Position numbers and translations under genes: made by a program
Shown here: in pieces, positions 23,181 through 45,645 of the stretch
Layout of the letters: each line of letters opens with the position of its first letter
How positions within the stretch are numbered: the stretch's first letter is position 1
Assembly: GCA_024641305.1 (NCBI GenBank)
Contig: JAHEDI010000023.1
Span: 1-54,073, forward strand
Direction of reading: 5' to 3'
Length of the DNA: 54,073 bases
DNA from: a bacterium
GTDB lineage: Bacteria > Actinomycetota > Acidimicrobiia > Spongiisociales > JAENVV01
Notes under the pieces: generated by a model
What the model was told of the DNA's origin: nothing
Database searches by the model: none
What the model saw: only the letters and a program-made list of their open reading frames with translations

Positions 23181-23252
23181 GGGCCGTTAGCTCAGGGGGA
23201 GAGCGCTTCCCTGACACGGAAGAGGTCGCTGGTTCAAATCCAGCACGGCCCA
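23181..23252 (+). tRNA. tRNA-Val(GAC), integration target
   Basis: Cloverleaf of 72 bases: acceptor GGGCCGT/ACGGCCC, anticodon arm CTTCC-CTGACAC-GGAAG with anticodon GAC. CCA is not encoded. Bases from 23206 onward are identical to a second copy at 30581, so its 3' half was supplied by the integrated element and the tRNA stays functional. Confidence 0.97.
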
Positions 23253-23307
23253 CAGCAAGAAACCCCGCTCCCAGAGCGGGGTTTCTTGGTATTCGGGGGA
23301 GTGGCAC
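23206..23307. repeat. attL: 102-bp direct repeat
   Basis: Exactly repeated at 30581-30682. It runs from the anticodon arm of tRNA-Val through its terminator and about 20 further bases. Bases before it are tRNA 5' half; bases after it are element DNA. Confidence 0.93.
23257..23287 (+). terminator. tRNA-Val terminator
   Basis: AAGAAACCCCGCT (23257-23269) and AGCGGGGTTTCTT (23275-23287) pair perfectly over 13 bp with a 5-base loop. The right arm supplies the U-rich tail. An identical copy lies in the repeat at 30632-30662. Confidence 0.9.
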
Positions 23308-23326
23308 CGACCGTGTTTTTTGGGTT

Positions 23327-23359
23327 TAGTCCACACCTAGTCCACACTTAGTCCGCGAA
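23327..23359 (+). repeat. Three 11-bp repeats, probable left arm sites
   Basis: TAGTCCACACC, TAGTCCACACT and TAGTCCGCGAA follow one another without gaps, ending four bases before the integrase stop. The same units occur at the other end of the element (30435-30467). Exact 11-bp phasing suggests cooperative integrase or excisionase binding. Confidence 0.78.
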
Positions 23360-23362
23360 CTG

Positions 23363-24496
23363 TTATCGCTTTGGGTTCACGGACGCCAAATTCGGGGCAC
23401 CGGAACCAGTCGTTCGTAGGCCGGAGATGAGGTCGTCGAGAGTGTCAGCGGCGGCCTCGTCGAGGCCATCCCAGAGGTGGCCGTAGGTGTCGAGGGTCGT
23501 GGCGATCTTGGCATGACCGAGCCGTGACTGGATCACCTTCGGGTGGGCGCCTTGAGCGATGAGCATGGCAGCGTGTGTATGTCGCAAGTCGTGGAATCGC
23601 ATCGGCTCGCCAACCGTGGAGCGGACGACTGGTACCCAATGGCGTCGCCGCCAGTTGGTGCGACGAAGGGCCAGGCCTTCGGTCGAGGTGAAAAGCAGTC
23701 CGTCGCCGGCAGAGTAGCGGCCAACATGCTCGACCAGTTCTGCCACCAGGAAAGACGGGAGGCTTATCCGTCGCCGAGAAGCGTCCGTCTTGGGCGTGGT
23801 GAATGAAAGCTCCCCACGGACGTCTGAGAGCGAGCGAGACACCGTGAGCGCCCGGCCATTTACATCTAGTGCGAATCGATCGAGTGCGACCAGCTCACCC
23901 CAACGTGCGCCGGTGTAGGCGGCTGTAAGAATCAAGACTCGGAAACGAGGAGCCACCGCCGCTGTGAGCGCTTCCACCTGGGCAGGCTGGAGGGTTCGCA
24001 TCTCTTTCCGAGCCGCCTTCGGTAGTTCGACGGATCGCAGCTGAGCCGGACTTCGGTTCAGTCGTCGCCGACGCACCGCTTGATCGAGGATCATCGACGC
24101 CAGTTGGTAGGCCTTCCCGATCGTCGCAGGGGCGAGGCCGTCGGCCGTCAAGTCTGTTATCCATCTGTCGAAGTGTTCGGGGGTGAGCTTTGCCAGGGAG
24201 AGCTTGCCAAAGTGCGGCAGGACGAGGTTACGCACGACGCTCTCGTCTCGGACCCGGGTTGATTCTTTTACAGATCGTCGCGAGTCCAACACGTGGCTGG
24301 CCCATTCCTCAAAGCTGATCGAACCCGATCGCGGATCAACCCACTCACCACGTAAAACGTCTACCGCTTGGGTGTCGAGCCACCGTTGGGCATCAACTTT
24401 GCGGGCGAACGCCTTCGATACTTCTCGGCGGTCGGGACCTCGGTATCGGGCAAGGTAAGGTTTTGGCTGTCCGGGTCGTTTGCTGATCGTTGCCAT
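23363..24496 (-). CDS. Tyrosine-recombinase integrase
   Basis: 377-residue site-specific recombinase expected to integrate and excise the element. The short N-terminal arm-binding domain (about 1-55, YRGPDRREVSKAFARK) is followed by a SAM-like core-binding domain (about 65-150) and the catalytic domain. Catalytic residues: Arg in TGARWGEL, HDLRH with His and Arg, His in LGHAKI, and Tyr in TLDTYGHLW. AAAGGA precedes the ATG by about seven bases. Its 3' end faces attL next to the arm repeats. It is full length with no visible break, so it may still be active. Confidence 0.95.
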   Translation of the reverse strand: MATISKRPGQPKPYLARYRGPDRREVSKAFARKVDAQRWLDTQAVDVLRGEWVDPRSGSISFEEWASHVLDSRRSVKESTRVRDESVVRNLVLPHFGKLSLAKLTPEHFDRWITDLTADGLAPATIGKAYQLASMILDQAVRRRRLNRSPAQLRSVELPKAARKEMRTLQPAQVEALTAAVAPRFRVLILTAAYTGARWGELVALDRFALDVNGRALTVSRSLSDVRGELSFTTPKTDASRRRISLPSFLVAELVEHVGRYSAGDGLLFTSTEGLALRRTNWRRRHWVPVVRSTVGEPMRFHDLRHTHAAMLIAQGAHPKVIQSRLGHAKIATTLDTYGHLWDGLDEAAADTLDDLISGLRTTGSGAPNLASVNPKR

Positions 24497-24667
24497 TGCT
24501 TGGTCCTTTCTTTTGTGACCTGTACATGCGCTGCTCTTGCATCGTGTCCGAAGTCGTGCCGCTTTCGGGTATGTCCATTTCCGGTGGCGACGCCTCCACT
24601 CGACTCGGGTCTCTTCGACTGACCACCTCTCTTTGTTCGTTTCCCACTGGAGTGCGAGCTCGCCTTC

Positions 24668-24868
24668 TCAACCTACGCCACCGCCCACTTCCTCGAGTCG
24701 GTCGTTGATCCATTGGTCGATGTCGCTTTTGCGGTAGCGGAGGTGTCGGCCAGCTCGGAAGCCGGGCGGTCCTTGGGGGCGGTGACGCCAGGCGTAGAGG
24801 GTGGCGAGGGGCACGTTGAGGTAGTCGGCGAGTTGTTGGGCTGAGAGCAGCGGGTCGAGATTGTTCAT
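24668..24868 (-). CDS. Excisionase-family small HTH protein
   Basis: 66 residues of the AlpA/MerR-like excisionase type: LLSAQQLADYLNVPLATLYAWR is the helix-turn-helix, then a wing (GPPGFRAGRHLRYRKSDIDQWI). Such proteins bend DNA to direct an integrase toward excision, or control its gene. The ATG at 24868 is preferred over TTG at 24874. It lies 171 bp upstream of the integrase on the same strand, the usual order. The 24869-25054 stretch holds no gene, only CTGTCA-rich AT-richer sequence that may be its promoter. Confidence 0.85.
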   Translation of the reverse strand: MNNLDPLLSAQQLADYLNVPLATLYAWRHRPQGPPGFRAGRHLRYRKSDIDQWINDRLEEVGGGVG

Positions 24869-25033
24869 CCCCAAACTGTCTGACGGGACCCTGTCAGCAG
24901 AGTGTTATTTGAGTGTCATTTACCCTGTCATTTGGTTGCCTTTTTGACTGTTTCGCCTGGTCAGCGACCCTTTTTGGAAATCTTCAAATCCGAGCCCCGG
25001 CGGCGCGTGGTGGTCGGGTTGAAAGGGTTACGG

Positions 25034-25053
25034 AAACTCTGTCGAAAGTGTTT
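25034..25053. repeat. Direct repeat left of the IS
   Basis: AAACTCTGTCGAAAGTGTTT matches 26414-26433 at 19 of 20 positions. The IS lies between the two copies. Confidence 0.75.
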
Positions 25054-25054
25054 G

Positions 25055-26408
25055 TTCCGGGGTGATGTGTGACACCGTGTACTGGGATCTTATGTGACAC
25101 TTCTTCGTTGTCGTGGGGGTTGTCGGTCTCCTTTGGGTTGGTAGTAGCGGTCGGGATCGATGGTGAGGGCCTGGATGAGGGCGTCACCGTGGTAGATGTG
25201 GACGAGCCGGTCGACTTCGATGACCCGCACGTGGGCTTGTGCGTAACGGTTCCCGACGTGGATGAGTTTGCCTCCGAATCCGATATTGCCGGTGTCGCCG
25301 ACTTTGCGGATGTAGGCGTCGGGCGGATAGGTGGGTTCGGTCATCTCGTCGGGTCCCGGGAGCCGGATCACATCGGGGTCGGCGGGTGCGACGCCGTAGC
25401 GTTCGGCGGGCGTGTCGTCGCCGATGCCTTGGTGGGGGCGCTGGCGGTTGTAGTGGAACCGGAACCCGTCGAGGAGCTCTTGGAGATGGTCAAGCGTCTT
25501 CGGCTGGGCCCTCATCGGTGAGCCATTCCTTGACGGTGCGGTGGAACCGTTCGAGTTTCCCTAACGTTTGGGGGTGATAGGGCGCCGAGTTGATCAGCTC
25601 GATCCCCAGATCCTTCAATGACACTTCGAAGGCGACTTCGGTGCCATGAAGGCGACCGGTGAAGATCAGCCCGTTGTCAGAGAGCACCTGGCGGGGCAGC
25701 CCATAACGCGACGCAGCCACTTCGAAGGCGTCCCACGCCAGGTCACCGGTCGCGGCCGGGCCAGCCTCAGCAGCCAACAGATACCTTGAGTGGTCATCGA
25801 TCACGTCAACGACCCACACCTCGGTGTTATCGGCCAGGACGATACGGGTGGCGTCGATCTGCCACAGATCATTGGCGATCTCACGCTCGAACCGTTTCTT
25901 AGCGGTTCCGCGCCGCGGCGGGCGGGCCGCGACCAGCCCGTTACGGACCAGCACCTGATGAACCGTCGACACCACCGGCGGATCGACCCCGGCCCGGGTC
26001 AGTTCGGCACGGATCCTCCTTGCACCCCAGCGGGGATGCTCCTTACGCATCTCAACGATCCGAACCTCGAGATCGGCGCGGATCTGGTTACCGGGATGGT
26101 CCGGCCGGCGGGACCGGTCCTCTAACCCGGGCAGACCTTCAGCGAGATACCGGCTCCGATACCGGTAATACGTTTGCCGCGAGATCTCGTATCTCCGGCA
26201 AATCTCGGCCACCGGCAACCCGGTGCGCTCTGCCTCCATCAACACTTCCAAACGTAACTCTGCCATCGTTACCACCTTCAACACCACCGCCGACCTCCTC
26301 GCCAAAGCACAAGGTCAGCATGCAGCAGCTAATTCGGTGGTGTCACACATCTATCCGGAACACTGTCACACATGTGTCCGGAACGATCTGTCACCGATCT
26401 CCCCGGAA
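25055..26408 (-). mobile_element. IS481-type insertion sequence
   Basis: About 1.35 kb with imperfect terminal inverted repeats: TTCCGGGGTGATGTGTGACA at 25055-25074 and the complement of 26389-26408, matching at 17 of 20 positions. Extra TGTGACA and TGTCACA copies lie just inside both ends, typical of transposase binding sites. It carries one transposase in two frames. No short target duplication is clear at the ends, but a 20-bp near-identical direct repeat lies just outside. Confidence 0.8.
25090..26305 (-). pseudogene. IS481-family DDE transposase, frameshifted
   Basis: The N-terminal part (26305 to 25490) has a helix-turn-helix (MEAERTGLPVAEICRRYEIS) and the rve DDE core: Asp in WQIDATRI, Asp in VLSDNGLIF, Glu in GKLERFH. 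It stops soon after TVKEWLTDEGPA. The C-terminal part (25515 to 25090) continues in another frame with TLDHLQELLDGFRFHYNRQRPHQGI, which normally follows directly. The break lies near 25495-25515. Programmed frameshifting is not typical of IS481 and I saw no slippery run, so a mutation is the simpler reading. Confidence 0.86.
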
Positions 26409-26413
26409 TGAAC

Positions 26414-26433
26414 AAACTCTGTCGAAAGGGTTT
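26414..26433. repeat. Direct repeat right of the IS
   Basis: AAACTCTGTCGAAAGGGTTT, the partner of 25034-25053. It is too long for an ordinary IS481 target duplication and may be an older pair of binding sites split by the IS. Confidence 0.75.
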
Positions 26434-26441
26434 TTGACACT

Positions 26442-27116
26442 TTGTTGACAGGGTTGTCGTGTCTAGTAGCCGACATGGAACCGGTTCGTAGCGTCGAGCA
26501 CCGTCAAAACCGACACCCCACCACAGGGCTAGTCCTGGTTGGGACGAGCCTTCGAAATCACCGCATCCACGGTGTTCCGGTGACGCTTCCGGCTCGGGAT
26601 CGGGTACTAACCCGGCCAACGTCTCATAACCATTCTGGAGTCCCAACCGCCCTCGAAGACCAGATCACTCGATTCGAAGCAACCAGTATCGGACAACAGA
26701 CTGATCGTTTTAGCCGATCCGAGCCCATCCAGGTTCGTACCTTCTCGACCGATCTTCCTGTCCTCCACACGCATCTGCAACGAGTTGCGTCCGGTTTACC
26801 GGTTTACCGGTCGGGGTGGCCGGTGTTGAGTTTGGCGAAGGTTGGCTGGTCGCAGCTGCTAGCTATTAGCCCCAACCCGAACGCCCCTAGATACGGCGGA
26901 GCCATCGACCGAGCGCTCGTACCCGACGAAGCCGCCAGACTCGAGGCCTATCTCCGGCCACTCGTCGAGGAAGGCCGCACCGGACGCATTCGCCACGCTA
27001 ACGCCTACGTCACGCCAACGCGAGCGGAGCCTGAACGAACCACGCCGATCAGCAATTCTGTTGCAACAACGAGCATTCGTCCAGTGTCCGACATCCTCAC
27101 GTACGCGAGTAGTTAG
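26442..27116 (+). other. Doubtful open frame, possible gene remnant
   Basis: An open frame of 224 codons after the IS. Most of it does not read like a natural protein, but residues about 145-200 (PRYGGAIDRALVPDEAARL ... RTGRIRHANAYV) do. This suggests a remnant of a gene lost when the IS entered. No ribosome site was found at the start. Its end meets the stop of the convergent lipoprotein gene. I cannot assign a family. Confidence 0.25.
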
Positions 27117-27907
27117 AAGTCGACCAAGCAGGAGATGCTTGCGACTTCGCCTGTGTCGATGGCGATGCCTACTCGAGTACGATCCGCACGACCGGGGAGG
27201 TCGGCTGCGTACTCGTCGACGGTTACCACGTCTTGGCAGAGGATCTGTACATTCGCGGCGATCGGAAAGCTGATTCCTCCGTCGAGCACCAAGATGTCGT
27301 CGGCCAGGCTGATGGGGCGGCGAAGCAGAGTTGCGGTTGGGTCTCCTTGGCGGTATTCGGCGATGTCGAACCATGCGATGGTGTCGTCGGCAGCTAGGGC
27401 ACCGTAGATGAAGCAGTCGTTAGGGATATTGTTGAACCTCACCTGTTCGAGGGTGGGGTTCTCAAGGCCGGTGATTGCTTCCCAGTCGTCACGTCGCACC
27501 AATTCGATGCATGCGTTACCTCCCGGTGTCCGAGCGGGAACCTCGAGCCGGACGCCGTCTTTGAAGACAACACTCGCGGGGCCGACCGTCGTCCCGGCAA
27601 CAGCACCGGGGGTAATCGCAACATCTGGTGGATCTATCGACCATGCCGAACCGAAGTCGACATCGATGACTCGCCCGTAGAACGTTTCGATCTCAAGCGG
27701 GGCCAGCGAGGAAGCGGCGGTGCTCGCCGGCGATTGCGGGGTCACTGTTGTCGAACCACTACCGGCCTGCGAGGCTGGTTCGGTGATGGACGGCGACAGC
27801 GTGGTGGTGGTCGCCCGCGAGGAGGACAGCACGGTAGATCCGTCACTGTTGTCGCAAGACGCCAGGACGATTATGAGTAGACCCATTGCAACCAGGCTTC
27901 GAGTCAT
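27113..27907 (-). CDS. Predicted lipoprotein, element cargo
   Basis: 264 residues from the ATG at 27907, where AGGAGG lies four bases upstream. A lipoprotein signal peptide ends in the lipobox VLASC (cysteine near residue 18), followed by a Ser/Thr/Pro-rich linker to about 70 and then an outer domain with four cysteines (NACIEL, NDCFIYG, ILCQDV, ISCLVDF) that could form two disulfides. The domain is not one I know. It is transcribed toward the left inside the element, and a longer upstream reading frame lacks the signal peptide at its N-terminus. Confidence 0.7.
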   Translation of the reverse strand: MTRSLVAMGLLIIVLASCDNSDGSTVLSSSRATTTTLSPSITEPASQAGSGSTTVTPQSPASTAASSLAPLEIETFYGRVIDVDFGSAWSIDPPDVAITPGAVAGTTVGPASVVFKDGVRLEVPARTPGGNACIELVRRDDWEAITGLENPTLEQVRFNNIPNDCFIYGALAADDTIAWFDIAEYRQGDPTATLLRRPISLADDILVLDGGISFPIAANVQILCQDVVTVDEYAADLPGRADRTRVGIAIDTGEVASISCLVDF

Positions 27908-28110
27908 GTCCCTCCTAGAGTTCAACACTAGGACGCAACTCGCGCGCCGCCGGTTCCCGCCCCGATCGCCCCTGGTCCGTGACGATAACGAGCGCATCGC
28001 CAACGCCGATGGTCTTGGTGGCGATGGCTCATCGTTGATCGCCGCCACTGCGATCGTGATGAGCGCCTTGGATCGATCTCGAGACTCCGGACTCGGATAT
28101 ATCCAAGGTG

Positions 28111-28896
28111 ATGCGCCAGAATGTCGATATGTGGAAGAAGTGGTTGATCGGATTCGTCGTTAGTGTGGGTGTGTTGGTTATCGCCGGGATGGCCGTATTC
28201 GGGCGAGGAGGCATCGACCCGTACTCGTTTACTGTGATCCGCGATGGCTGCCCTCATACGCTCTGGTCTTTTTCGGCAGTGGATTGGGCGCCGTTTGTTC
28301 AACACGATGGTCGGAACTACTACGAGCAGACCATCCGAGCTGATGAGCCGCAACTCACCGGTGCGTTGCTGGAGGAAACAGTCGGGACGGTTCAGTGCAT
28401 TCTTGGCGATCAAGTCCAAGACACTGGCTATCAGATCCGCGACGACGACTCCGCCTACCTCGCACCCGGCACCCAACTAAAGACGGTACGCGGTTTCGAC
28501 CCGCGCTTCCGCCTGGCGGCGGACACCGAAGACGGACTGGTTCTTTATGAGACCTGGCCGGAGGGTCTGGTCGGGACCGGACGGGACGTCTTCGGGGATC
28601 TCGACACCCGGGCGTCCGGAATCGCTGTCAACGCTGATGTATCCGATGGGGAGACCACGGTCGGTCGCATCGACGATCCCGAAACGGCGCGTACCCTCGT
28701 GACCGAACTCCTCGAGGGTTCTCTCACATCAGACCGCCACGATGGCGTCGGAGATCGTTACTTCCTGGAGATCGAGTTCGAAGGCGCACCACCTGTGAAC
28801 CTTGTGCTCTTCGTCGACGCGCGACGCATCCACCCTGACCTCGTCGTATCCCAACAGTTCGTCGACGCCATCCTCGCCGCAGTCGATGGGAACTAA
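28111..28896 (+). CDS. Predicted membrane-anchored exported protein, element cargo
   Basis: 261 residues. One N-terminal membrane helix (about 10-30, WLIGFVVSVGVLVIAGMAVF) leaves the rest outside. The outer part has cysteines in RDGCPHTLW and TVQCILG, and acidic stretches later, with no family I recognise. Starts at 28111 and 28129 are both possible; TATATC lies about seven bases before the first, hinting at a leaderless start. It is divergent from the lipoprotein at 27113 over about 200 bp. The 28897-29133 stretch after it holds nothing I can identify. Confidence 0.62.
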   Translation: MRQNVDMWKKWLIGFVVSVGVLVIAGMAVFGRGGIDPYSFTVIRDGCPHTLWSFSAVDWAPFVQHDGRNYYEQTIRADEPQLTGALLEETVGTVQCILGDQVQDTGYQIRDDDSAYLAPGTQLKTVRGFDPRFRLAADTEDGLVLYETWPEGLVGTGRDVFGDLDTRASGIAVNADVSDGETTVGRIDDPETARTLVTELLEGSLTSDRHDGVGDRYFLEIEFEGAPPVNLVLFVDARRIHPDLVVSQQFVDAILAAVDGN

Positions 28897-29133
28897 CAGC
28901 GAAGCAACCCCGATAGGTTGGTCTCTCGGCCCACCAACACTGCATACCCAGATCACCATAATCGCGTCCCAAAACGCCTACTTCGAGGAGTGCTCCGTAC
29001 CGGCACCCCGAGGATCAGTGGGTGATAGTGCGATTGCACTCCCGAGAATTGTCCCTGAACTGAGCGATCGGCACCTCCAGGAGCGGTTTCCTATCGGGTG
29101 TCGGGCATTGAGTGTGGGCTTGGTGCTTCGCCG

Positions 29134-30210
29134 CTATCGCAGGTCTTCTTCAACGATGGCGTCCCAAGTGTCGTTGTGAACACTCTTGACGGTGAAGGGT
29201 GGGGCTGGCAGCAGCCCACGTTCGACCGTTACCACATACACGTAGGGTCGGTAGACTGTGAGGCAGACGCCTTGAGGTGGTCCTTCCAAGAGCTTCGGAT
29301 CCACGACGACGGCCTGGAGCAGGCCTTCTTCCGCAACGATCCCATCGAATCGTGATTCGTCGCAGCTGCCACCGCCGAGGCCTATCTCGAAAGCGACCAC
29401 GATTTCGGTTTCCCAGTCAGGCTCGGGGACAGGGGTTTCGAGTCGGAGTTCGGTCCACAGGTCTTGCAGCGTGTCGCTGTTCGTGATGATTCGTGGTGTG
29501 TGACCGATGGACTGGCCGGTTTCTGCGAGGTATCGCCAACCGTCGCCGGTGAGCTGCTGGGGGCCTGCTTCGCCGATTTGATCACCGATGAGCCCGGCAA
29601 CACAGAGCGGATATTCGCCCGAGAGGGGACCGAGCGCTGTCCGGTTTTCGTCGGTGACCTTCCCTACCCAGATGCTGATGGTGCCGGTCCTCTCGTCGGT
29701 CTGGTAGGTGGCCATTCCTTCCGGGAGGCGGTCTGCGACCTCGACGGCCAGAGCGTTCAGCTCGGCGGCGGAATAGTCGAGCTCCACCGCCACAATCCCC
29801 TCACCAGGGAACGCGACTTCGAGGTCTCGTTGCCTCTCAAGGATGTTGGTGTCGACGAATCCGACGTGGATCCAGTTGTGGCGGGCCCGATTGGTCCACA
29901 CCGCCTCGAACCCTTCGAGGGTCGCCGCGTACACGCCGACCTCCAGCTTCAGATACTGCAGGTCGCGGTACACGGGCTCATCCCGATACCAGTCGTCGGG
30001 GGCTTCCCGCCACACAAGCGGATCACAAATCGGAGCCAGCACGCTGGCATTCGAAGTCGGTGGGTCGGTGGGTCGAGTCGCCCCGGGCGGAATCGTCTGA
30101 GAACCCTGGGCTGGGGCGGTCGTTGGCACTTCGGTGAGTTGTTCGCTGGGCGAACATCCGGTCCACACAACCACCAAAACAATGATCAACGCAAAATCCC
30201 GAACCACCAC
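29134..30210 (-). CDS. Predicted lipoprotein, element cargo
   Basis: About 358 residues from GTG at 30210. The N-terminus VVRDFALIIVLVVVWTGC is a lipoprotein signal with a somewhat unusual lipobox (Trp at -3). A Pro/Thr-rich linker is followed by a long outer region that includes FPGEGIVAVELDYSAAELNALA and a C-terminal cysteine-containing part (GGGSCDESRFDG, GVCLTVYRPYVYV). The late portion looks like a small protective or inhibitor-type beta domain, but I cannot name it. Longer in-frame starts exist upstream, without a signal peptide at the N-terminus. Confidence 0.62.
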   Translation of the reverse strand: MVVRDFALIIVLVVVWTGCSPSEQLTEVPTTAPAQGSQTIPPGATRPTDPPTSNASVLAPICDPLVWREAPDDWYRDEPVYRDLQYLKLEVGVYAATLEGFEAVWTNRARHNWIHVGFVDTNILERQRDLEVAFPGEGIVAVELDYSAAELNALAVEVADRLPEGMATYQTDERTGTISIWVGKVTDENRTALGPLSGEYPLCVAGLIGDQIGEAGPQQLTGDGWRYLAETGQSIGHTPRIITNSDTLQDLWTELRLETPVPEPDWETEIVVAFEIGLGGGSCDESRFDGIVAEEGLLQAVVVDPKLLEGPPQGVCLTVYRPYVYVVTVERGLLPAPPFTVKSVHNDTWDAIVEEDLR

Positions 30211-30434
30211 CGTTGAAACGACCTCCGACCCGATACCGTTCCCAAGCCAGCCAACGGCGATCCACTGATGAACCATATCAGCCCGTCGCGGCGGAGGAAC
30301 CCAAAACGACAATGATCGCCGCGTCGGTCAGCCTGGGCGGAACCGGCTGTTCGAGCCGGGCGCCTCGGGTGCGGACGGTGGCCGGTCCCAGGGTGGCGAT
30401 GAAAGCAACCATATCGGCGCGTCGGCACCGGTTT

Positions 30435-30467
30435 TAGTCCGCGTTTAGTCCGCGTTTAGTCCGCGAA
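30435..30467 (+). repeat. Three 11-bp repeats, probable right arm sites
   Basis: TAGTCCGCGTT, TAGTCCGCGTT and TAGTCCGCGAA in tandem, 114 bp before attR. They match the left-end units in sequence, period and orientation. Confidence 0.78.
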
Positions 30468-30508
30468 ACGGTGAAAACTGCTGCACAGCAACCAGAGTCG
30501 ATGAGGCT

Positions 30509-30537
30509 CGAAACCCCTTGCGCCACAAGGGATTTCG
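30509..30537. terminator. Hairpin just inside attR
   Basis: CGAAA-C-CCCTTG and CAAGGG-A-TTTCG pair around a 5-base loop with one mismatch. It could stop transcription entering or leaving the element. Confidence 0.5.
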
Positions 30538-30580
30538 GCAGATTGGTCCACTACCGTCAGGTCTCCCGAAACCCCCTGTT

Positions 30581-30682
30581 CTTCCCTGACACGGAAGAGG
30601 TCGCTGGTTCAAATCCAGCACGGCCCACAGCAAGAAACCCCGCTCCCAGAGCGGGGTTTCTTGGTATTCGGGGGAGTGGCAC
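30581..30682. repeat. attR: 102-bp direct repeat
   Basis: Exact copy of 23206-23307. It carries the displaced original 3' half of tRNA-Val(GAC) and its terminator, without a 5' half, so it makes no tRNA. Confidence 0.93.
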
Positions 30683-30972
30683 GCCAAACCAACACCCTCT
30701 ACCTGACCAACCACCAACACGCCGACGAACAGTGCACCCACCTCACCCACACCGATCACCGTGATGCGATCGAAAGCCTCGTCGCCGCCCTCAACCGAGG
30801 CTCAACCCAGACCGCCGCCATCGACCGTCCCGGGCTGGTACCAACCGGCGACATCGATCCGTTCGGCCCGCCCCCACCGAGCACAGATGTCGCCGCCCGG
30901 GTCGCCTGGCAGATCGCCAAACGCCAAAACCAGCGGCAAGCCCCCGATCTCGACCGCGCTATCGGCCGCTAA
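30683..30972 (+). pseudogene. C-terminal fragment, probably a MobF-type relaxase/helicase
   Basis: The frame starts directly at the edge of attR with RQTNTLYLTNHQHADEQ and continues through AALNRGSTQTAAID to a stop at 30972. Short tails of this form (NTLYL, then a Ser/Gln-rich block ending TAAID) occur at the end of actinobacterial TrwC/TraA-like relaxase-helicases. There is no start codon or catalytic part left. The assignment is from memory of the family and is tentative; a conjugative gene tail would mean an older element lies outside attR. Confidence 0.45.
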
Positions 30973-31101
30973 CCACAACCACGAAAGATGGTCACCGGGT
31001 CTGGTATCACGCGACAGTTGCCGGTTCCCGGACGCCGATGGGTGCTCGATATCGCTCGGGGCGGTGGTGATATGGCGGGACCTCCTGCCAGACTGTGCGA
31101 C

Positions 31102-31523
31102 ATGTCGTGTGAGACCGCCGATGCTGCCCTCGATCTTGTCGTTCGAGATCACGAGGATCTGTCGAATCCATTTCAGGCAGCGATCATTGACTGCGGGGAT
31201 GGGTGCGCCGAGGCCTGCAACATGCTGAGCCTCCGCGTAGCTCGGCGACTCTTGGACGGGGATCTCGCCTTCGAGGCTGCCGACGCGGTTATGAACTGGG
31301 TGGGGTCATACATGGTTGATGTGCGCAAACGATTGGGTACGAGGCTATGCCTGACCCTGCGCACTCGATCGATGATGCAGTTGATTCTGGCGAGTACCGC
31401 CACAGCGGTGATGACCCAGACATCGATCCGATGGAGAGTACACGATTCCAGGACTCTCCCAGATCCTCGCCGACTCCGCTTGCAGGACGTGGAGAACAAG
31501 TCCTACACGGGGCGCCACCCTGA
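31102..31523 (+). pseudogene. Frameshifted small protein of unknown function
   Basis: One frame gives a natural-looking helical protein (CETADAALDLVVRDHEDLSN ... NWVGSYMVDVRKRLG) up to about 31335. The next frame then continues with YEAMPDPAHSIDDAVDSGEY to a stop at 31523. A one-base loss near 31336 explains this. The single-frame continuation to 31767 is Arg/Ser-rich and runs through a tandem repeat, so it is unlikely to be native. The family is unknown. Confidence 0.4.
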
Positions 31524-31580
31524 TCTGGTGATTCACGCAGATCACCAGACACAGAGCGAGAACGAGCAAACCGCCCAGCA

Positions 31581-31634
31581 GCGCCGAGCGGCACCGAGCG
31601 GCACCGAGCGGCACCGAGCGGCACCGAGCGGCAC
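31581..31634. repeat. 10-bp tandem repeat
   Basis: GCACCGAGCG occurs four times in a row (31591-31630), preceded by a one-mismatch copy and followed by GCAC. It is slippage-prone, non-coding or pseudogene sequence. Around it, 31524-31923 contains no gene I can support. Confidence 0.85.
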
Positions 31635-31923
31635 TTCCCGCTTGGGTCCCTACAGCGCAGCGACCGTTGCGGGCTGGGGACACAGGAGGAGAAGGCTTGT
31701 TGGGAGTGGCTCAGAACACACGACGAACGGGTCAACTCGTTCGTCGACCTCACCAGCTTCTAGGTGATGCGCGATAGGCGTCTCCGAGAAGCCCTGGCAT
31801 TCGACCAGGACTCACAGCGGCGGGCTTCAACGAGCTTCGACTATGACGATCGGGCGGTCACCCAATGGACTGAGAGCCCGAACCGAACTGCTCCGCCGTC
31901 GACATCGGGGTGTAAACGGTAGG

Positions 31924-32538
31924 TTACCCGGTCGTCGTCGTCGTCACTCCGTCCTGGTCGCCAACCGAACCGGCCGGGCGGCTGAGCGCTGCACGAACGT
32001 CATTGATCAGCGACTCCTCAGCGACCCGGGCGCCGGAGGTTCCGAGATCTGACGCCTGGGAACTGTTCACCTCGTAGGCAGCGTTCACGGTGCTGGCGCT
32101 GATGTCGCCGAGGGTCACTTCTTCCTGAGTGAACACGATGAGCGATTGTCCCGGCTGGAACGACTCCGGGGCGATCCCATCGCGAACCACGTACGACGTT
32201 TGTCCTACATCGCCACCGAGAACCCGGACCCAGATCTGCTCACCGATGGCTGCGCTCCCTTTGATCACCTCATCGACGGTCACGGAAACGGGCACGAACG
32301 CGAACACGGTACCGTCGGACAGCCTGTACTCAACGGGTCCTTCCACCTCCTTCACCGTCACGCGCAGTATCGCCGCGTTGTTGCTCGCCGAGGCGACAAC
32401 ACCCTGGGGCGAGGAGTCGATTGGATAGCTCGAGCCCATTTCAACCGTGACGCCTGGACCGCTGTCAAGACCACACGCACTGAGAACGAGTGCCGCGGCC
32501 AACACCAAGACGTATTCGGTGACTCTTCGGTTCTTCAT
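31924..32538 (-). CDS. Predicted lipoprotein downstream of metzincin gene
   Basis: 204 residues. Signal peptide with lipobox LVLSAC (cysteine near residue 22), then a beta-rich outer domain (AILRVTVKEVEGPVEYRL, VPVSVTVDEVIKGSA, SLIVFTQEEVTLG) and a Thr-rich end. The repeated VTVxEV pattern resembles small domains found in other exported proteins, but no function follows. AAAGG lies about eleven bases before the ATG. It starts 18 bases after the metalloprotease-like gene on the same strand, so the two probably form one transcript and may act together at the cell surface. Confidence 0.72.
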   Translation of the reverse strand: MKNRRVTEYVLVLAAALVLSACGLDSGPGVTVEMGSSYPIDSSPQGVVASASNNAAILRVTVKEVEGPVEYRLSDGTVFAFVPVSVTVDEVIKGSAAIGEQIWVRVLGGDVGQTSYVVRDGIAPESFQPGQSLIVFTQEEVTLGDISASTVNAAYEVNSSQASDLGTSGARVAEESLINDVRAALSRPAGSVGDQDGVTTTTTG

Positions 32539-32556
32539 CGAGCTTCGCCGCCTTTC

Positions 32557-33153
32557 TCAGTAGAGGGTTGCTGCCCCGGCCTCGTCATCCGAATTGGTAT
32601 CCCATTTCTTGGTCCAATCGGGGTTCATGGCCGCGGCTTGCTCCGCAGCTGTCATCGTTCCGCAATACAGGGGGTGCAGTAGGCCGAGAATGTGCCCCAT
32701 TTCATGCATGACGACCGTGTGAACGTCCGCCTGCGATCCCGAGACCATCGTCCCCGAAAAGTTCCAGGAGTAGTCCGTGTTCTGGTACTGCCGGGCCTTC
32801 GTGATCTGGCTGCCGGAAATCGTCAAGATCGTGTACCCGGGAACGTTTTGCCAGCCATTCGCCGAGAAGTCGACGTTGGAGATGACATACGCGGAACTGG
32901 TGGTCACGGTTCGCGAGGGTGTCGAGTAACTCCAGGTACTCCCCGCGATACCGTTCCAGTCGATGCGTGCGTTGTTGACCGTGCTGTCCCATCCGGTTGG
33001 AACGGTCGATGCCTTTCGTGGAATGAGGGTGGATCCCGCCCATCGAACGTTGTTGCCGCCCGTGGCCTGGATGCAGAAGGCGGTCGCCGGTGAGGGGATC
33101 AGAGCACTTGCGACTACGAGAACCAGTCCGAGGATCCACGTGCGTGACTTCAT
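32557..33153 (-). CDS. Secreted metzincin-like metalloprotease
   Basis: 198 residues. Sec signal peptide (about 1-25, cleavage near PATA-FC). The zinc site is VVMHEMGHILGLLHP near residue 145, matching HExxHxxGxxH of matrixin and related metzincins, and a possible Met-turn, AAAMNPDW, follows. The catalytic domain is short and ends soon after. The substrate is unknown. The N-terminal half (NNARIDWNGIAGSTWSYST) is typical of small exported proteins of this group. It is followed by a lipoprotein gene in the same direction. Confidence 0.85.
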   Translation of the reverse strand: MKSRTWILGLVLVVASALIPSPATAFCIQATGGNNVRWAGSTLIPRKASTVPTGWDSTVNNARIDWNGIAGSTWSYSTPSRTVTTSSAYVISNVDFSANGWQNVPGYTILTISGSQITKARQYQNTDYSWNFSGTMVSGSQADVHTVVMHEMGHILGLLHPLYCGTMTAAEQAAAMNPDWTKKWDTNSDDEAGAATLY

Positions 33154-33571
33154 CGCGGGATGATACGTTTCGTGGGGGGGGTGTCAAGTGCCTCTCCCGA
33201 CGGGTGGGGCTCGTTTCCGGCTGGCACCTGCGTCAGCTCGACCTCGGCGGCGAGTCGATGGATTCGGTCGTTGAGAAGTTGGTCGGTGAGTCGGCGACGG
33301 TCGATGGTTTCGACGGCATGGATGACGGTGGCGTGCGGGCGGCCGACGGCGGTGCCGATATCTTGGTTGGGTGAGTTGAGTTCTGGCGCGGAGCAGGTAG
33401 ATGACGAGCTGGCGGTCGGCGGCGATGGGTTGGCGGCGACTGTGGGTGGTTATCGGCTGCGCAGATGTCGTATTCACGGGCGACGGCGGCAAGAATGAGT
33501 GTCAGGTCCACAGGTAGCTCCGATCGGGAGCACGGAGCCGGCGTTCGGTCGCTAGTTCGGTTTCGAGCCAT
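33150..33571 (-). pseudogene. Broken DnaA domain IV (Bac_DnaA_C) gene
   Basis: Three frames read in order give a recognisable DnaA C-terminal domain: VDLTLILAAVAREYDICAAD near 33450-33511, then RQLVIYLLRARTQLTQ near 33375-33420, then DIGTAVGRPHATVIHAVETI near 33310-33370, followed by DRRRLTDQLLNDRIHRLAAE. The last frame ends in a stop that overlaps the metzincin start as ATGA. At least two frameshifts make it non-functional. The ATPase part is absent, so this was probably a small DnaA-like DNA-binding protein of a plasmid or integrative element, not the chromosomal initiator. Confidence 0.7.
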
Positions 33572-33799
33572 TCAGGTTCGGCGGTGACGGGCCGCTGGAT
33601 CGAACGTCATATCGCGGATTCGGTCACGTGCGAGCTGGCCATGATGGCGGGCGCGAACAGCAATGCCAGCGTTTGGGCGATCGTGGTCGAAGGCTACCGT
33701 GCTGACCTTGATAGCGTTGCGGCGGTGCTCAGCGCCACAGAAGTCGACCTAAGTTACTCGGACGGCCGCTAGCTGCTCACGACCACCAGGTTCGACTAA

Positions 33800-34159
33800 T
33801 TGTCCGATGCTCGCTCGGTCCTGCGTGGAGCTTCGGGGCTTCTCAGCTTTGCCTCAGGCGCAGTGGCCATTTCCCGTCTATCGGTTCGCCCGCTGGCCCT
33901 CGGCCAGGTAATTCGAATCCATGCAGACGGCCGCTCGGAAACGCATGCGCTGGTTGGCACAGTTTTCGAGTTTGAGTCGGTTTTCGGAGCCGGTTCAATC
34001 ACGACGACTTCGGATGGTATCCGCGTGCGTCAACTTCTGGCTATTGCTCAGAAGGCAATCGTTGCAGGCGAGGCGAACGAAGACCTAGCGCACGCTCTTA
34101 GATTGTTGGGGAACATCCGCGAAGGTTCGCAAACCTATCGGAGGCGGAGCTCTTGGTGA
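33800..34159 (+). CDS. Hypothetical protein
   Basis: 119 codons from a TTG start, containing regular-looking stretches (VIRIHADGRSETHALVGTVF, RVRQLLAIAQKAIVAGEANEDLAHAL) but no domain I know and no ribosome site. Its codon use is less GC-biased at third positions than the neighbours. It may be a remnant of accessory DNA. The flanking 33572-33799 and 34160-34366 stretches hold no gene I can support. Confidence 0.3.
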   Translation: MSDARSVLRGASGLLSFASGAVAISRLSVRPLALGQVIRIHADGRSETHALVGTVFEFESVFGAGSITTTSDGIRVRQLLAIAQKAIVAGEANEDLAHALRLLGNIREGSQTYRRRSSW

Positions 34160-34366
34160 GCGACATCCTTCGCAACTGGTAGAGGCGGAGTGGGCCGTGC
34201 TCGCGTCGAAGGATTGACCTGTGCCTATGTGGATGAGTATCTATGCATGCGTGGATACACAGTCGATTCATCAGATTGGCGATCGTTGCAGGCGTGGGCG
34301 AGAGAAATGCGTTGAGCCGTGGCTCTGAACCCGATACGCTGCGTTTATCACGGGAGGAATACGTCG

Positions 34367-34744
34367 ATGAGCAAAATGCCTGCCCGCATCGCCGCGTTTG
34401 GCGGGGCGGTGTTTGTTGCTTTCGGATTGTGGGCCATGATCGGCCCTTCGTCCTTTTTCGACCAGCTGGCGCAGTTCGAGCCGTACAACCAGCACTTCAT
34501 CCAGGACATCGGCGCGTTCCAACTGGGACTCGGGGCAGTACTGCTCCTCGCACTGCGCCATTCCGATTCGCTCGCTTCAGGGCTCCTCGGGGCAGGAACG
34601 GGTTCTGCGGCTCACGTTGTATCGCATGCCATTGGCGCCGATCTCGGTGGTACCCCGGCTGTCGATATTCCGTTTTTTGCTGTGCTATCGGCGGTTTTGC
34701 TGGTGGGTGGCGTCATGCGGCTTCGCCACCGCCTCTTTGACTGA
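34367..34744 (+). CDS. Small integral membrane protein
   Basis: 125 residues with four hydrophobic segments (about 8-27, 47-65, 73-92 and 100-117) and short loops (SSFFDQLAQFEPYNQHFIQDIGAF). The layout resembles small four-helix DUF4345-type membrane proteins, but I cannot assign it firmly. GGAGGAA precedes the ATG at 34367 by eight bases; an in-frame upstream ATG at 34319 has no such site. It stands alone between decayed mobile-element DNA and the lipoprotein hydrolase. Confidence 0.65.
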   Translation: MSKMPARIAAFGGAVFVAFGLWAMIGPSSFFDQLAQFEPYNQHFIQDIGAFQLGLGAVLLLALRHSDSLASGLLGAGTGSAAHVVSHAIGADLGGTPAVDIPFFAVLSAVLLVGGVMRLRHRLFD

Positions 34745-34781
34745 GCGAATCGGCTATTCAGTGAGCCCACGTCTCATGCGG

Positions 34782-34831
34782 GAACTGTTATCGCTCTGGG
34801 TTCACAGATACCAAATTGGGGCACCAGAACC
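34782..34831 (-). pseudogene. Fossil of an integrase 3' end
   Basis: These 50 bases match 23357-23407, the end of the tRNA-Val integrase gene and its stop, at 45 of 51 aligned positions. All substitutions are transitions, and there is one single-base gap that breaks the frame. Nothing else of the integrase remains nearby. It points to a former related element to the right of the present one. Confidence 0.65.
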
Positions 34832-35053
34832 TTCCACTCAACACAGATCATCTCAGACCCTGTTCGAGAGATGGGAAAACCGCGATCGACAACGGTGAAT
34901 GTTTCCGCCATCGTCCGTGGAATGAGTGGACGCTGGGCTCTGCTGGTGATACCTTGCGCGCAGAGGCGGAGGCGCCCGCAACGAACGTTGCTCGCCTTCC
35001 ACTAGCTGCGGCTCCGTGCCTCGCGACCGTCGACACGTCGATAGGGGTCGTCC

Positions 35054-36046
35054 ATGTCACCGAGGCCGCGGTTCGTCATCATCATCCTGGGTCTTTTGGT
35101 CGGGGCATGCGGGTCCCAAACCGCACCGCTCTCTGCCGGTTCGTCGACGCCTCCGGCGACGCAGCCCGACGCGGTAACGACCACCGTGAACGCAGCTACT
35201 ACGACGGCCGCCGTGGACACCACCATGACTGTCGTGCAGACCGGGCCGCTGTACCAGGTGGATATCGGTGGTCGGATCATGGTGATGGAGTGTCGCGGAC
35301 AAGTTTCGACACCGACCGTGGTCGTCGACGCGTGGTCTTCGAACGGGGTCCGGGCGCTCGTTGAAGCCGTCTCGGACTTTGCCAGGGTATGCACCTATGA
35401 CCATGCCGGAACTCGTCGGAGCGGGCCGCCGCCTGAGCTGCCCCGCACCGCTCAGGCCTATGCAGACGATCTGCATGCGTTGCTTTCCGGATCGGGCGTT
35501 GAAGGACCGTATATCCTGGTCCCTTGGTCGCTCACGACATGGACCACGATTCTCTATGCCTGGACTTACCCCGAGGACCTCGCTGGCGTTGTCATGATTG
35601 ACCCGCGCGGTCCCGGGGTGAGTTCGGGAGACCTGGCTGCGCTCCCTGAGCCAATGCCGGATGAGCCCCTGGCAGTGACCGACGTTCGCAACTTCCTGCT
35701 TGAACTGATCTCCAACCCGGGAGAAAACGACGATGAAGGGCTCGATTGGCATGCGAGCGAGGAACTGGCCCGAGCCGCCATCGACGAAGACGGACCGTTG
35801 TTTGGAGACCGTCCGACCATCGTCCTGAGTGCCACCGACACGTTCGAAGATTGGAGAACCCTTGACCTTCCGCCGGAGATTCTCGACTTGTTCTGGCAGG
35901 TGTGGATCGACGAGCAGCAACGACTTGCCGCCGAGTCGAGTCGGGGGGAATGGCGTGTGGTCCCTGACAGTCGCCATGCCATCCAGGTGGATCAATTGGG
36001 TGCCGTTGTCGACGCCGTCAGGGAGGTGGTATCGGCCGCTGGGTAG
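35054..36046 (+). CDS. Lipoprotein alpha/beta hydrolase
   Basis: 330 residues. The lipoprotein signal ends LLVGAC (cysteine near residue 19). A Thr/Ala/Pro-rich linker to about 65 precedes an alpha/beta-hydrolase fold: VCTYDHAGTRRSGPPP before the nucleophile elbow, the likely Ser in LVPWSLTTW (a variant of GxSxG), and the His in DSRHAIQVDQ near the C-terminus. The substrate is unknown. Many short exported hydrolases have this form. The long acidic and Thr-rich linker suggests the enzyme sits away from the membrane. Confidence 0.8.
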   Translation: MSPRPRFVIIILGLLVGACGSQTAPLSAGSSTPPATQPDAVTTTVNAATTTAAVDTTMTVVQTGPLYQVDIGGRIMVMECRGQVSTPTVVVDAWSSNGVRALVEAVSDFARVCTYDHAGTRRSGPPPELPRTAQAYADDLHALLSGSGVEGPYILVPWSLTTWTTILYAWTYPEDLAGVVMIDPRGPGVSSGDLAALPEPMPDEPLAVTDVRNFLLELISNPGENDDEGLDWHASEELARAAIDEDGPLFGDRPTIVLSATDTFEDWRTLDLPPEILDLFWQVWIDEQQRLAAESSRGEWRVVPDSRHAIQVDQLGAVVDAVREVVSAAG

Positions 36047-36124
36047 GAAGCGGAAGCGCCAGCTGAACGCCCCTTACGGTTGTGTGATCCAGACGATCAA
36101 ATCACTAGGAAAGGACTACCAACA

Positions 36125-36559
36125 ATGGCCCGCGTTTCAACGTACCTCAACTTCATGGGCACGACTGAAGAGGCGTTTGAGTTCTACCGCCGTGTATTCG
36201 GGGGAGAATTCACGTTCATCACACGCATGAGTGATGTCCCGCCGATGCAAGGTCAGTCACCGCTCACGGAGTCTGAACAGCAAATGATCATGCACATCGA
36301 ATTGCCAACGCTGGGCGATCACAGCCTCATGGGGACAGACGCGCTTGAGTCGATGGGTCATACCCTGACCTTCGGGAACAATTTCTCGATCAACCTCGAG
36401 CCAGACACGCGCGCCGAGGCCGACCGTCTATACGCCGGGCTTGTGGAGGGTGGGGAAGCGACCACCCCACTTACTGACATGTTCTGGGGCAGCTATTTCG
36501 GCTTGCTGACTGACCGGTTCGGTGTGCAATGGATGTTCAATTGCGCGGAAAACACCTAG
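36125..36559 (+). CDS. PhnB-like VOC-fold protein
   Basis: 144 residues from the ATG at 36125, with AGGAAAGGA upstream. VSTYLNFMGTTEEAFEFYRR and FGVQWMFNC bound a glyoxalase-fold domain of the PhnB/YjdN type. Members of this group are mostly without proven enzymatic activity. An upstream in-frame ATG at 36080 adds residues unlike the family. It follows the hydrolase by about 80 bp and may be transcribed separately. The 36560-36808 stretch after it is without a recognised gene. Confidence 0.85.
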   Translation: MARVSTYLNFMGTTEEAFEFYRRVFGGEFTFITRMSDVPPMQGQSPLTESEQQMIMHIELPTLGDHSLMGTDALESMGHTLTFGNNFSINLEPDTRAEADRLYAGLVEGGEATTPLTDMFWGSYFGLLTDRFGVQWMFNCAENT

Positions 36560-36808
36560 CCATGGCGCTCGGGAAACCGAATCGTGGTCGCGATTACCCG
36601 GGTCGAGCGGGCGTCAGGGATGCGTATTCAGGCACTTATACAGTCGTTCAAGCTTGCCGGTAGGCGATCGCCCTGTTGTCTTTGACTCCAGCCACCATAA
36701 GGACCTGGCCCCAGAGAGGGGCACCTAGTTTCTTAGGTCTTGATCATCTGAAGGCTTCCCGAGACAAGTCCACGGTGGATGTCGTTCAAACTTAAGGTGC
36801 ACTCTCAC

Positions 36809-37246
36809 TCAGGATTTGGCTGGACCGATGGGTGGTCGCTGTTTGCGATACGAGTTCTTTCGCTTGATCAGACCGTTGCGGACTGTGAGAAAGTCACACC
36901 CGTTCACTTCAAGGCGACTCCCGTCGGCCAGCGTGCCGGTCAACGTCCACTCCGAAACACAATATTCGGGGTTGATCACATGGTGATGCCCACTTCCCCA
37001 GTGGGCGTCGGGCATTCTCTCGAACACCGACGCGAAAGCCATTCGTACTTCGGCCCCTCCTGCAAATCGCTGTCCTTCGACATCGGGTCCCCCGGAAGCT
37101 TCGAAGACCCCGTCCTTGGAAAATAGCTGCATCAAGGCCTCCAGGTCATGGTTGTTCCATGCATTAATATGCTTGACCATCAAGGCCATCAGGGCTTCGT
37201 CGGGTTCTGACACGGGTACCTCACTTGTCGCTTCGTGCAAGAGCAT
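36809..37246 (-). CDS. SnoaL-like (NTF2-fold) protein
   Basis: 145 residues or 134 if the GTG at 37213 (GAGG six bases upstream) is used. The opening VKHINAWNNHDLEALMQLFSKDGVFE and the later VNGCDFLTVRNGLIKRKNSY are typical of the SnoaL/NTF2-like polyketide cyclase superfamily. Functions range from isomerases to binding proteins, so no reaction is assigned. It is on the same strand as, and downstream of, the oxidase gene at 37311, with a 64-bp gap. Confidence 0.82.
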   Translation of the reverse strand: MLLHEATSEVPVSEPDEALMALMVKHINAWNNHDLEALMQLFSKDGVFEASGGPDVEGQRFAGGAEVRMAFASVFERMPDAHWGSGHHHVINPEYCVSEWTLTGTLADGSRLEVNGCDFLTVRNGLIKRKNSYRKQRPPIGPAKS

Positions 37247-45082: not shown

Positions 45083-45154
45083 GGGCGATTAGCTCAGCGG
45101 GAGAGCGCTGCCTTCACACGGCAGAGGTCACTGGTTCGATCCCAGTATCGCCCA
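45083..45154 (+). tRNA. tRNA-Val(CAC)
   Basis: 72-base cloverleaf: acceptor GGGCGAT/ATCGCCC, anticodon arm CTGCC-TTCACAC-GGCAG with anticodon CAC. CCA is not encoded. Accessory DNA starts just after it. Confidence 0.96.
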
Positions 45155-45225
45155 CTCCGAGATCCCTTGTGTTTGTTGGGGCTTCTAGGTCAGTCCCCTC
45201 CCTTGATCCCTGTTTTGGGATCGTC

Positions 45226-45247
45226 GCGTCCACATGGCGTCCACACG
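45226..45247. repeat. Two 11-bp repeats beside tRNA-Val(CAC)
   Basis: GCGTCCACATG and GCGTCCACACG in tandem. They share the core GTCCACA and the 11-bp period with the arm repeats of the tRNA-Val(GAC) element, and may be arm sites of a lost element. Confidence 0.5.
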
Positions 45248-45266
45248 AGATGGGTCCCGGGGCGGG

Positions 45267-45645
45267 TTGAGGGTGTCGGCCACGATTCGGCGCTACGCGC
45301 TCCGCAAAGAAACGCTTTCTTCGATGGTTGAGCTGGGCTCGTTGACACCGGCAGCGGCAGGATTCCTCTGGGCTGTGATGCAGACGAACATGAGTGTTCT
45401 CATCTCGGGTCCGCCCGGGGCAGGGAAGACCTCCATGCTCACGGCGGCACCGTCGACACACTGTCTGCGGTGTTGCGAAGAAGTGCGTGAACTGCACGTT
45501 CCTATCACGCACGGGTCCTACTACGAGTCTCGTCCGGCTGCCCTCGATGGATCAGCGGAGATAAGCCTTCGAGACCTCGTCAAGGTCGTTCTTGCGATGC
45601 GCCCGGATCGCATTGTCGTCGGCGAGGTACGAGGCTCGGAAGCGC
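45267..45645 (+). pseudogene. Fragment of a CpaF/TadA-type secretion ATPase
   Basis: About 125 codons of a VirB11-like ATPase: RRYALRKETLSSMVELGSL, Walker A GPPGAGKTSML, the acidic region VREL, and Walker B-like MRPDRIVVGEVRGSEA. The N-terminal domain, the downstream half and a start codon are missing. After 45645 the frame loses similarity, and ITGLPFAVELAVA appears in another frame, so there was a deletion and a shift. CpaF/TadA powers tad-type pili or DNA transfer; here it is only a relic. Confidence 0.75.

Follow-up and report, generated by a model that had tools for sequence, protein, structure and literature searches.

The integrative element seated in the tRNA-Val(GAC) gene of the window (the whole stretch of 54,073 nt that was analysed) appeared to be stacked onto the remains of a relative. 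About 48 bp of the 102 bp repeated exactly at its two ends most likely correspond to the usual recombination site, and the other 54 bp, tRNA terminator included, to the terminal sequence of an older relative. With a probability of roughly 70%, judged from sequence comparison, the element integrated by its core of about 48 bp into a tRNA gene that an older relative had already re-ended, and the left-end relic of that relative remains. The insertion would be a well-made but ordinary case of stacking, by tandem accretion, an already known process.

The direct repeat (102 nt, 100% identity) was recovered in two copies as originally predicted, with 7375 bp between them, and identity broke off abruptly on both sides (at 23205/30580 and 23308/30683). 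An exact match of 102 bp cannot be of chance origin, and a search of the own genome (a draft of 93 contigs) gave no third copy. Copy 1 starts at position 26 of the tRNA, the first base of the anticodon stem (CTTCC-CTGACAC-GGAAG), and reaches 54 bp beyond the tRNA 3' end, through a terminator-like hairpin (Table 1) and a 19-bp block behind it (GTATTCGGGGGAGTGGCAC). The first 60 nt 3' of the tRNA displayed an MFE of -32.5. As in tRNA-seated islands, an intact tRNA lies at one end and a 3' tRNA fragment in the same orientation at the other, with a tyrosine integrase gene inside the element and adjoining the tRNA, which bears out the predicted insertion of an integrative element into a tRNA gene. 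The 5' part of this tRNA would be native and its 3' part, from 23206 onward, supplied by the element. The proposal that the element end provides both the tRNA 3' half and the terminator was likewise supported.

Table 1. Features of the element and of its insertion site, in window coordinates.
Feature	Position	Strand	Remarks
tRNA-Val(GAC), intact	23181..23253	+	same tRNA, with one repeat copy, in G002, G003 and G004
Repeat copy 1 (attL side)	23206..23307	+	48-bp tRNA core 23206-23253, hairpin 23256-23288, block 23289-23307
Terminator-like hairpin CAAGAAACCCCGCTCCCAGAGCGGGGTTTCTTG	23256..23288	+	33-nt inverted repeat
Left arm, three TTAGTCCRC-type direct repeats, 11-bp period, putative integrase arm sites	23325..23357	+	
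Tyrosine integrase, 377 aa	23363..24496	-	PF00589 3.7e-16; phrog_1 3.7e-73
Excisionase-like HTH_17 protein, 68 aa	24668..24874	-	PF12728 1.2e-12; phrog_66; TIGR01764 just below cut-off
IS481-family transposase, two overlapping frames	25090..26305	-	NF033577 above cut-off; rve_3 in second ORF
Cargo, three ORFs	27113..30312		27113-28048 -, 28108-28896 +, 29134-30312 -
Right arm, three TTTAGTCCGCG direct repeats	30433..30465	+	same arrangement in G001, 91%
Second hairpin GAAACCCCTTGCGCCACAAGGGATTTCGG, inside right end	30510..30538	+	kept in G001
Repeat copy 2 (attR side)	30581..30682	+	48-bp tRNA fragment and 54 bp of left-end-type sequence
Accreted DNA right of copy 2	30683..36822	.	missing from G002 at the same site
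87% copy of 23354-23407, one base deleted	34779..34831	+	last arm base pairs and integrase gene 3' end

Residues of the catalytic motif were present in the integrase (R198, HDLR 302-305, H328, Y338), whose gene is oriented with its 3' end towards the tRNA. The putative arm-site repeats (TTTAGTCCRCR) are 11 bp long and are confined, within the window, to the inner side of the element ends, three at each; the six occurrences of TAGTCC[AG]C in the 54 kb are the three inside the left end and the three inside the right end. Such a layout is the one expected for arm-type sites of a lambda-type integrase. The split in the IS481 transposase indicates a frameshifted copy or a programmed frameshift. The three cargo ORFs, with N-termini that looked lipoprotein- or secretion-like by eye, had no match in Pfam, PHROGs or NCBIfam. 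No conjugation or replication genes were found among the scanned ORFs, where matches were restricted to the integrase, the excisionase-like protein and IS481. Phage structural, packaging and capsid-hijack genes were likewise absent from the element, for which the PHROGs scan returned the integrase and the excisionase only. A tandem 10-bp repeat (CCGAGCGGCA, about five copies) lies in the accreted DNA at 31574-31633.

Relatives of the integrase (E <= 1e-40) were encoded in 56 of the 138 genomes of the host's order, and a class-wide search at E <= 1e-75 gave few outside it, nearly all matches being within the order. Where a tRNA adjoins, mostly 70-160 bp separate its 3' end from that of the integrase. 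The adjoining isotypes were Val, Ala, Ile, Pro, Asn, Thr, Glu, Arg, Met, Lys and Phe, while about one third of the loci had no ARAGORN-recognised tRNA next to the integrase. A hairpin with a score of at least 12 was found within 10 bp of the tRNA in 24 of 38 distinct left ends, compared to 2% of shuffles. Arm-like direct repeats follow the hairpin in the left ends, and similar repeats precede the distal att. These comparisons outline what would be a large family, with a regular attP layout and terminators behind many tRNA genes in one order. Integrase matches in phages and viral contigs were all below 60% identity and those in plasmids comprised two records at 60-80%, so that no phage or plasmid source was identified; the arm-site pattern had no match in viral contigs.

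Further traces of the family were observed in the own genome and beyond. Behind tRNA-Val(CAC) (45083-45155), the window holds a left-end relic of the same family (45161-45280). This relic matches L141 and L080 at their left ends (82-94%) and has GCGTCCACA-type arm repeats and no recognisable integrase. On contig C57 of the own genome, tRNA-Val(TAC) bears a family-type left end (L005); three tRNA-Val genes of this genome have thus been targets. An identical tRNA-Ala left end (L029/L138) is shared by a record entitled Acidobacteria bacterium B15T1B8 and by G121, a genome of the window's order, which may reflect a wrong title or a contaminating contig.

The extent of the att core could be read from members with both ends on one contig, of which there were only about ten. 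In those with well-defined cores, the exact run usually opens at tRNA position 26-33, in keeping with the anticodon-centred class (PMC4383910). The run stops at the last tRNA base in solo relatives, which have no left end behind the distal att (L123, 44 bp; L139, 43 bp; L165, 50 bp), as well as in L145 (43 bp, with a flank of only 6 bp) and in L155 (48 bp), where the displaced left end lies 58 bp further on. Runs well beyond the tRNA were found only in the relative genome G001 (+15), L133 (+19), L030 (+14) and the window (+54, an exceptional length). Left-end-like DNA was found behind the distal att in G001 (87% over 145 bp), L133 (84% over 111 bp), L030 (86% over 36 bp) and the window (54 of 54 bp), and extended well beyond any terminator in G001 and L133. 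The match in L166 was imperfect (51 bp at 90%, +4). L193, at tRNA-SeC, the sole both-ended element among a further 20 loci, has a run of 29 bp that starts at tRNA position 65 and may therefore belong to a different class.

The same left-end sequence was detected behind other tRNA genes. The cassette of hairpin, block and arms (23254-23362) recurs behind tRNA-Ile in G001 (86% over 102 bp) and in part, partly decayed, in G003 (92% over 48 bp); neither locus retains an integrase. The tRNA-Ile genes of G004 and the own genome are followed by different DNA, which indicates that the cassette is element-borne. The 14-mer CGGGGGAGTGGCAC after the hairpin was also found in the left end of L157, a Val(TAC) element from another family of the order, the match of the 19-bp block to L157 being weak on its own (E 0.035 in 1.6 Mb). 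The proposal of an unusually long att site was not supported, since the segment shared in relatives without a second left end (43-50 bp) stops exactly with the tRNA, and the additional 54 bp occur as left-end sequence behind other tRNA genes. The integrase-less left-end scars at tRNA-Ile of G001 and G003 (L067, L068) carry a hairpin almost the same as the one behind tRNA-Val, which suggests replacement of tRNA terminators by elements.

A tandem arrangement was clear in G001, which carries, in a separate assembly, two repeat copies 4066 bp apart in the same layout, with ends 93% (left) and 91% (right) identical to those of the window. Cargo differs in this element (L062, G001:C114, 8580-12645), and its integrase is reduced to the last 30 residues. 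The cargo ORFs appeared by eye to be amidohydrolase-like and carboxymuconolactone decarboxylase-like, the ends being kept and the inside exchanged. Behind the second copy of G001, another element left end leads via arm-like repeats into an integrase 3' end. In G001, and likewise in L133, the distal att is clearly followed at once by the end of another related element, while the same test in the window gave only the 54 bp and a 53-bp integrase scrap 4.1 kb away.

The repeat, the ends, the arm-like repeats, the family layout, the cassette at other tRNA genes and the G001 tandem were all obtained by comparing sequences, and the following history would account for them. A small integrative element A (23206-30682) would use its tyrosine integrase for recombination in the anticodon loop of tRNA-Val(GAC). 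The attP of A, in the layout of the family, would comprise, in order, the right arm repeats, the 48-bp core (from the anticodon arm to the tRNA 3' end), the terminator hairpin, the block, the left arms and the integrase 3' end, and on insertion A would replace both the 3' half of the tRNA and its terminator with its own. Earlier, a relative (element B) would have re-ended the same tRNA, placing directly behind it a hairpin and block matching those of A. These would now be part of copy 2; on a target that B had re-ended beforehand, the exact repeat would come to 102 bp instead of about 48 bp. Since the crossover must fall in the tRNA core common to all members, the 54 bp of copy 2 would have been chromosomal before A, and they most likely represent a relic of B. 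The match in copy 2 halts after 54 bp, ahead of the arm sites, so that B is deduced from a short relic. B would have decayed to this relic and, probably, to the integrase fragment at 34779-34831. Earlier occupation is supported by this 3'-end fragment, 87% identical to 23354-23407, which is probably a second relic of B, or else of another relative; lying 4.1 kb off, it may also belong to a separate event. No other integrase stretch was found in the window (tblastn with 57 family integrases, E 1e-3). From these comparisons we infer the crossover point, the activity and the insertion order.

The identity of the two copies could also have arisen secondarily, the copies diverging after an old insertion and being equalised later by homologous recombination or gene conversion. 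Such homogenisation seemed unlikely as an explanation, although it can act alongside the stacking of A onto B, so that the confidences placed in the two overlap. Over the 54 bp beyond the tRNA, the window copies showed no difference, the G001 copies three, and the window compared to G001 copy 1 four; at positions 2, 4 and 45, the two window copies share a base that neither G001 copy has. This contrast (0/54 within the own genome, G000, vs 4/54 to G001) would be expected of equalised copies, but the same pattern is predicted by recent integration from a conspecific pool, and homogenisation leaves the left-end DNA on the host side unexplained. If the separation of the window copies were as old as that of the two genomes, the chance of finding no difference would be about 0.02-0.05, which makes recent integration or homogenisation likely, not strongly proven. 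The earlier suggestion of recent integration or continuing exchange agrees with this comparison to the orthologous G001 copy.

The same site in other relatives bears on whether the att site proper is long, with the terminator and about 20 bases being native tRNA-Val flank that attP captured entirely in a past host. This appeared quite improbable; such a capture, for example through a slightly imprecise excision, would let attB and attP share 102 bp without a second element. G002 has a single copy, followed after about 95 bp by the homologue of window 36823 onward, and lacks 23308-36822 (13.5 kb) at this near-empty site; behind its hairpin an approximate, scar-like block (GGGCGAGTGGTGCC) is kept. 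One copy each was found at tRNA-Val of G003 and G004, with a near-identical hairpin in the former, a similar one in the latter and no other sign of an element in either. A hairpin in genomes without an element there, and a hairpin with an approximate block at the single copy of G002, are compatible with native flank. However, the 19-bp block is absent behind the hairpin in G003 and G004, it occurs in left ends elsewhere (L157 at Val-TAC, the tRNA-Ile scars of G001 and partly those of G003), and the hairpins of solo siblings are not common to the host side. As the hairpin alone also lies behind tRNA-Val in G003 and G004, this block is the only real discriminator. The candidates for an empty site in relatives were these single-copy sites, that of G002 still bearing a scar-like block. 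The stretch missing from G002 exceeds the 7.4 kb between the repeats.

A misjoin of two contigs at the repeat, conceivable in a draft of 93 contigs when many relatives' contigs end inside such elements, is highly improbable, since the independent assembly of G001 has the same two-copy layout and order of right arm, att and left end, with right arms 91% identical, and the flanks of the copies differ exactly as integration predicts; the assembly error envisaged in the original prediction is argued against by the same layout.

Stacking onto the end of an older relative, the preferred reading, has counterparts in known systems. An anticodon-centred crossover is a recognised subsite, Islander class A (PMC4383910), which the element resembles in its intact tRNA and 3' fragment, the integrase between them and the repeat from the anticodon arm, and from which it differs in a common segment that goes 54 bp beyond the tRNA. 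Elements that accrete and leave decayed relics are amply documented (PMC5704250; PMC3218068). Tandem accretion and CIMEs (PMC5704250), as well as Streptomyces AICEs (PMC9513070), similarly involve serial insertions at one tRNA and relics that keep att ends without an integrase; unlike those, the element showed no conjugation or replication genes among the ORFs scanned, and its resident would survive as a 54-bp end with a possible integrase scrap. Tycheposons (PMC10872708) are alike in layout alone (tRNA seat, tyrosine recombinase, cargo without recognised transfer genes), their host group being different. AICEs (PMC3218068) share the tyrosine integrase adjoining a tRNA and the excisionase-like gene, but no translocase or replication protein was found among the window ORFs scanned. 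As flanking repeats of 2-94 nt are described for Streptomyces AICEs and of 93 nt for an ICE in tRNA-Thr (PMC9513070), 102 bp stands at the long end and is not a new kind. In the literature, no direct description of att sites including a tRNA terminator was found. Longer flanking repeats are known for SLP1 and phage HP1.

A broader scheme is doubtful at present: an order-wide family of small elements may carry a terminator in its attP, each insertion overwriting the native tRNA terminator. The new terminator would persist as a scar after loss of the element and lengthen the homology offered to the next one, which would favour repeated stacking at the same genes.

Overall, the mechanism is ordinary and the family-wide anatomy neat. 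The size of an att site cannot always be read from the flanking repeat, which grows by the common element end where relatives are stacked. The integrase family is a natural data set for the turnover of tRNA terminators.
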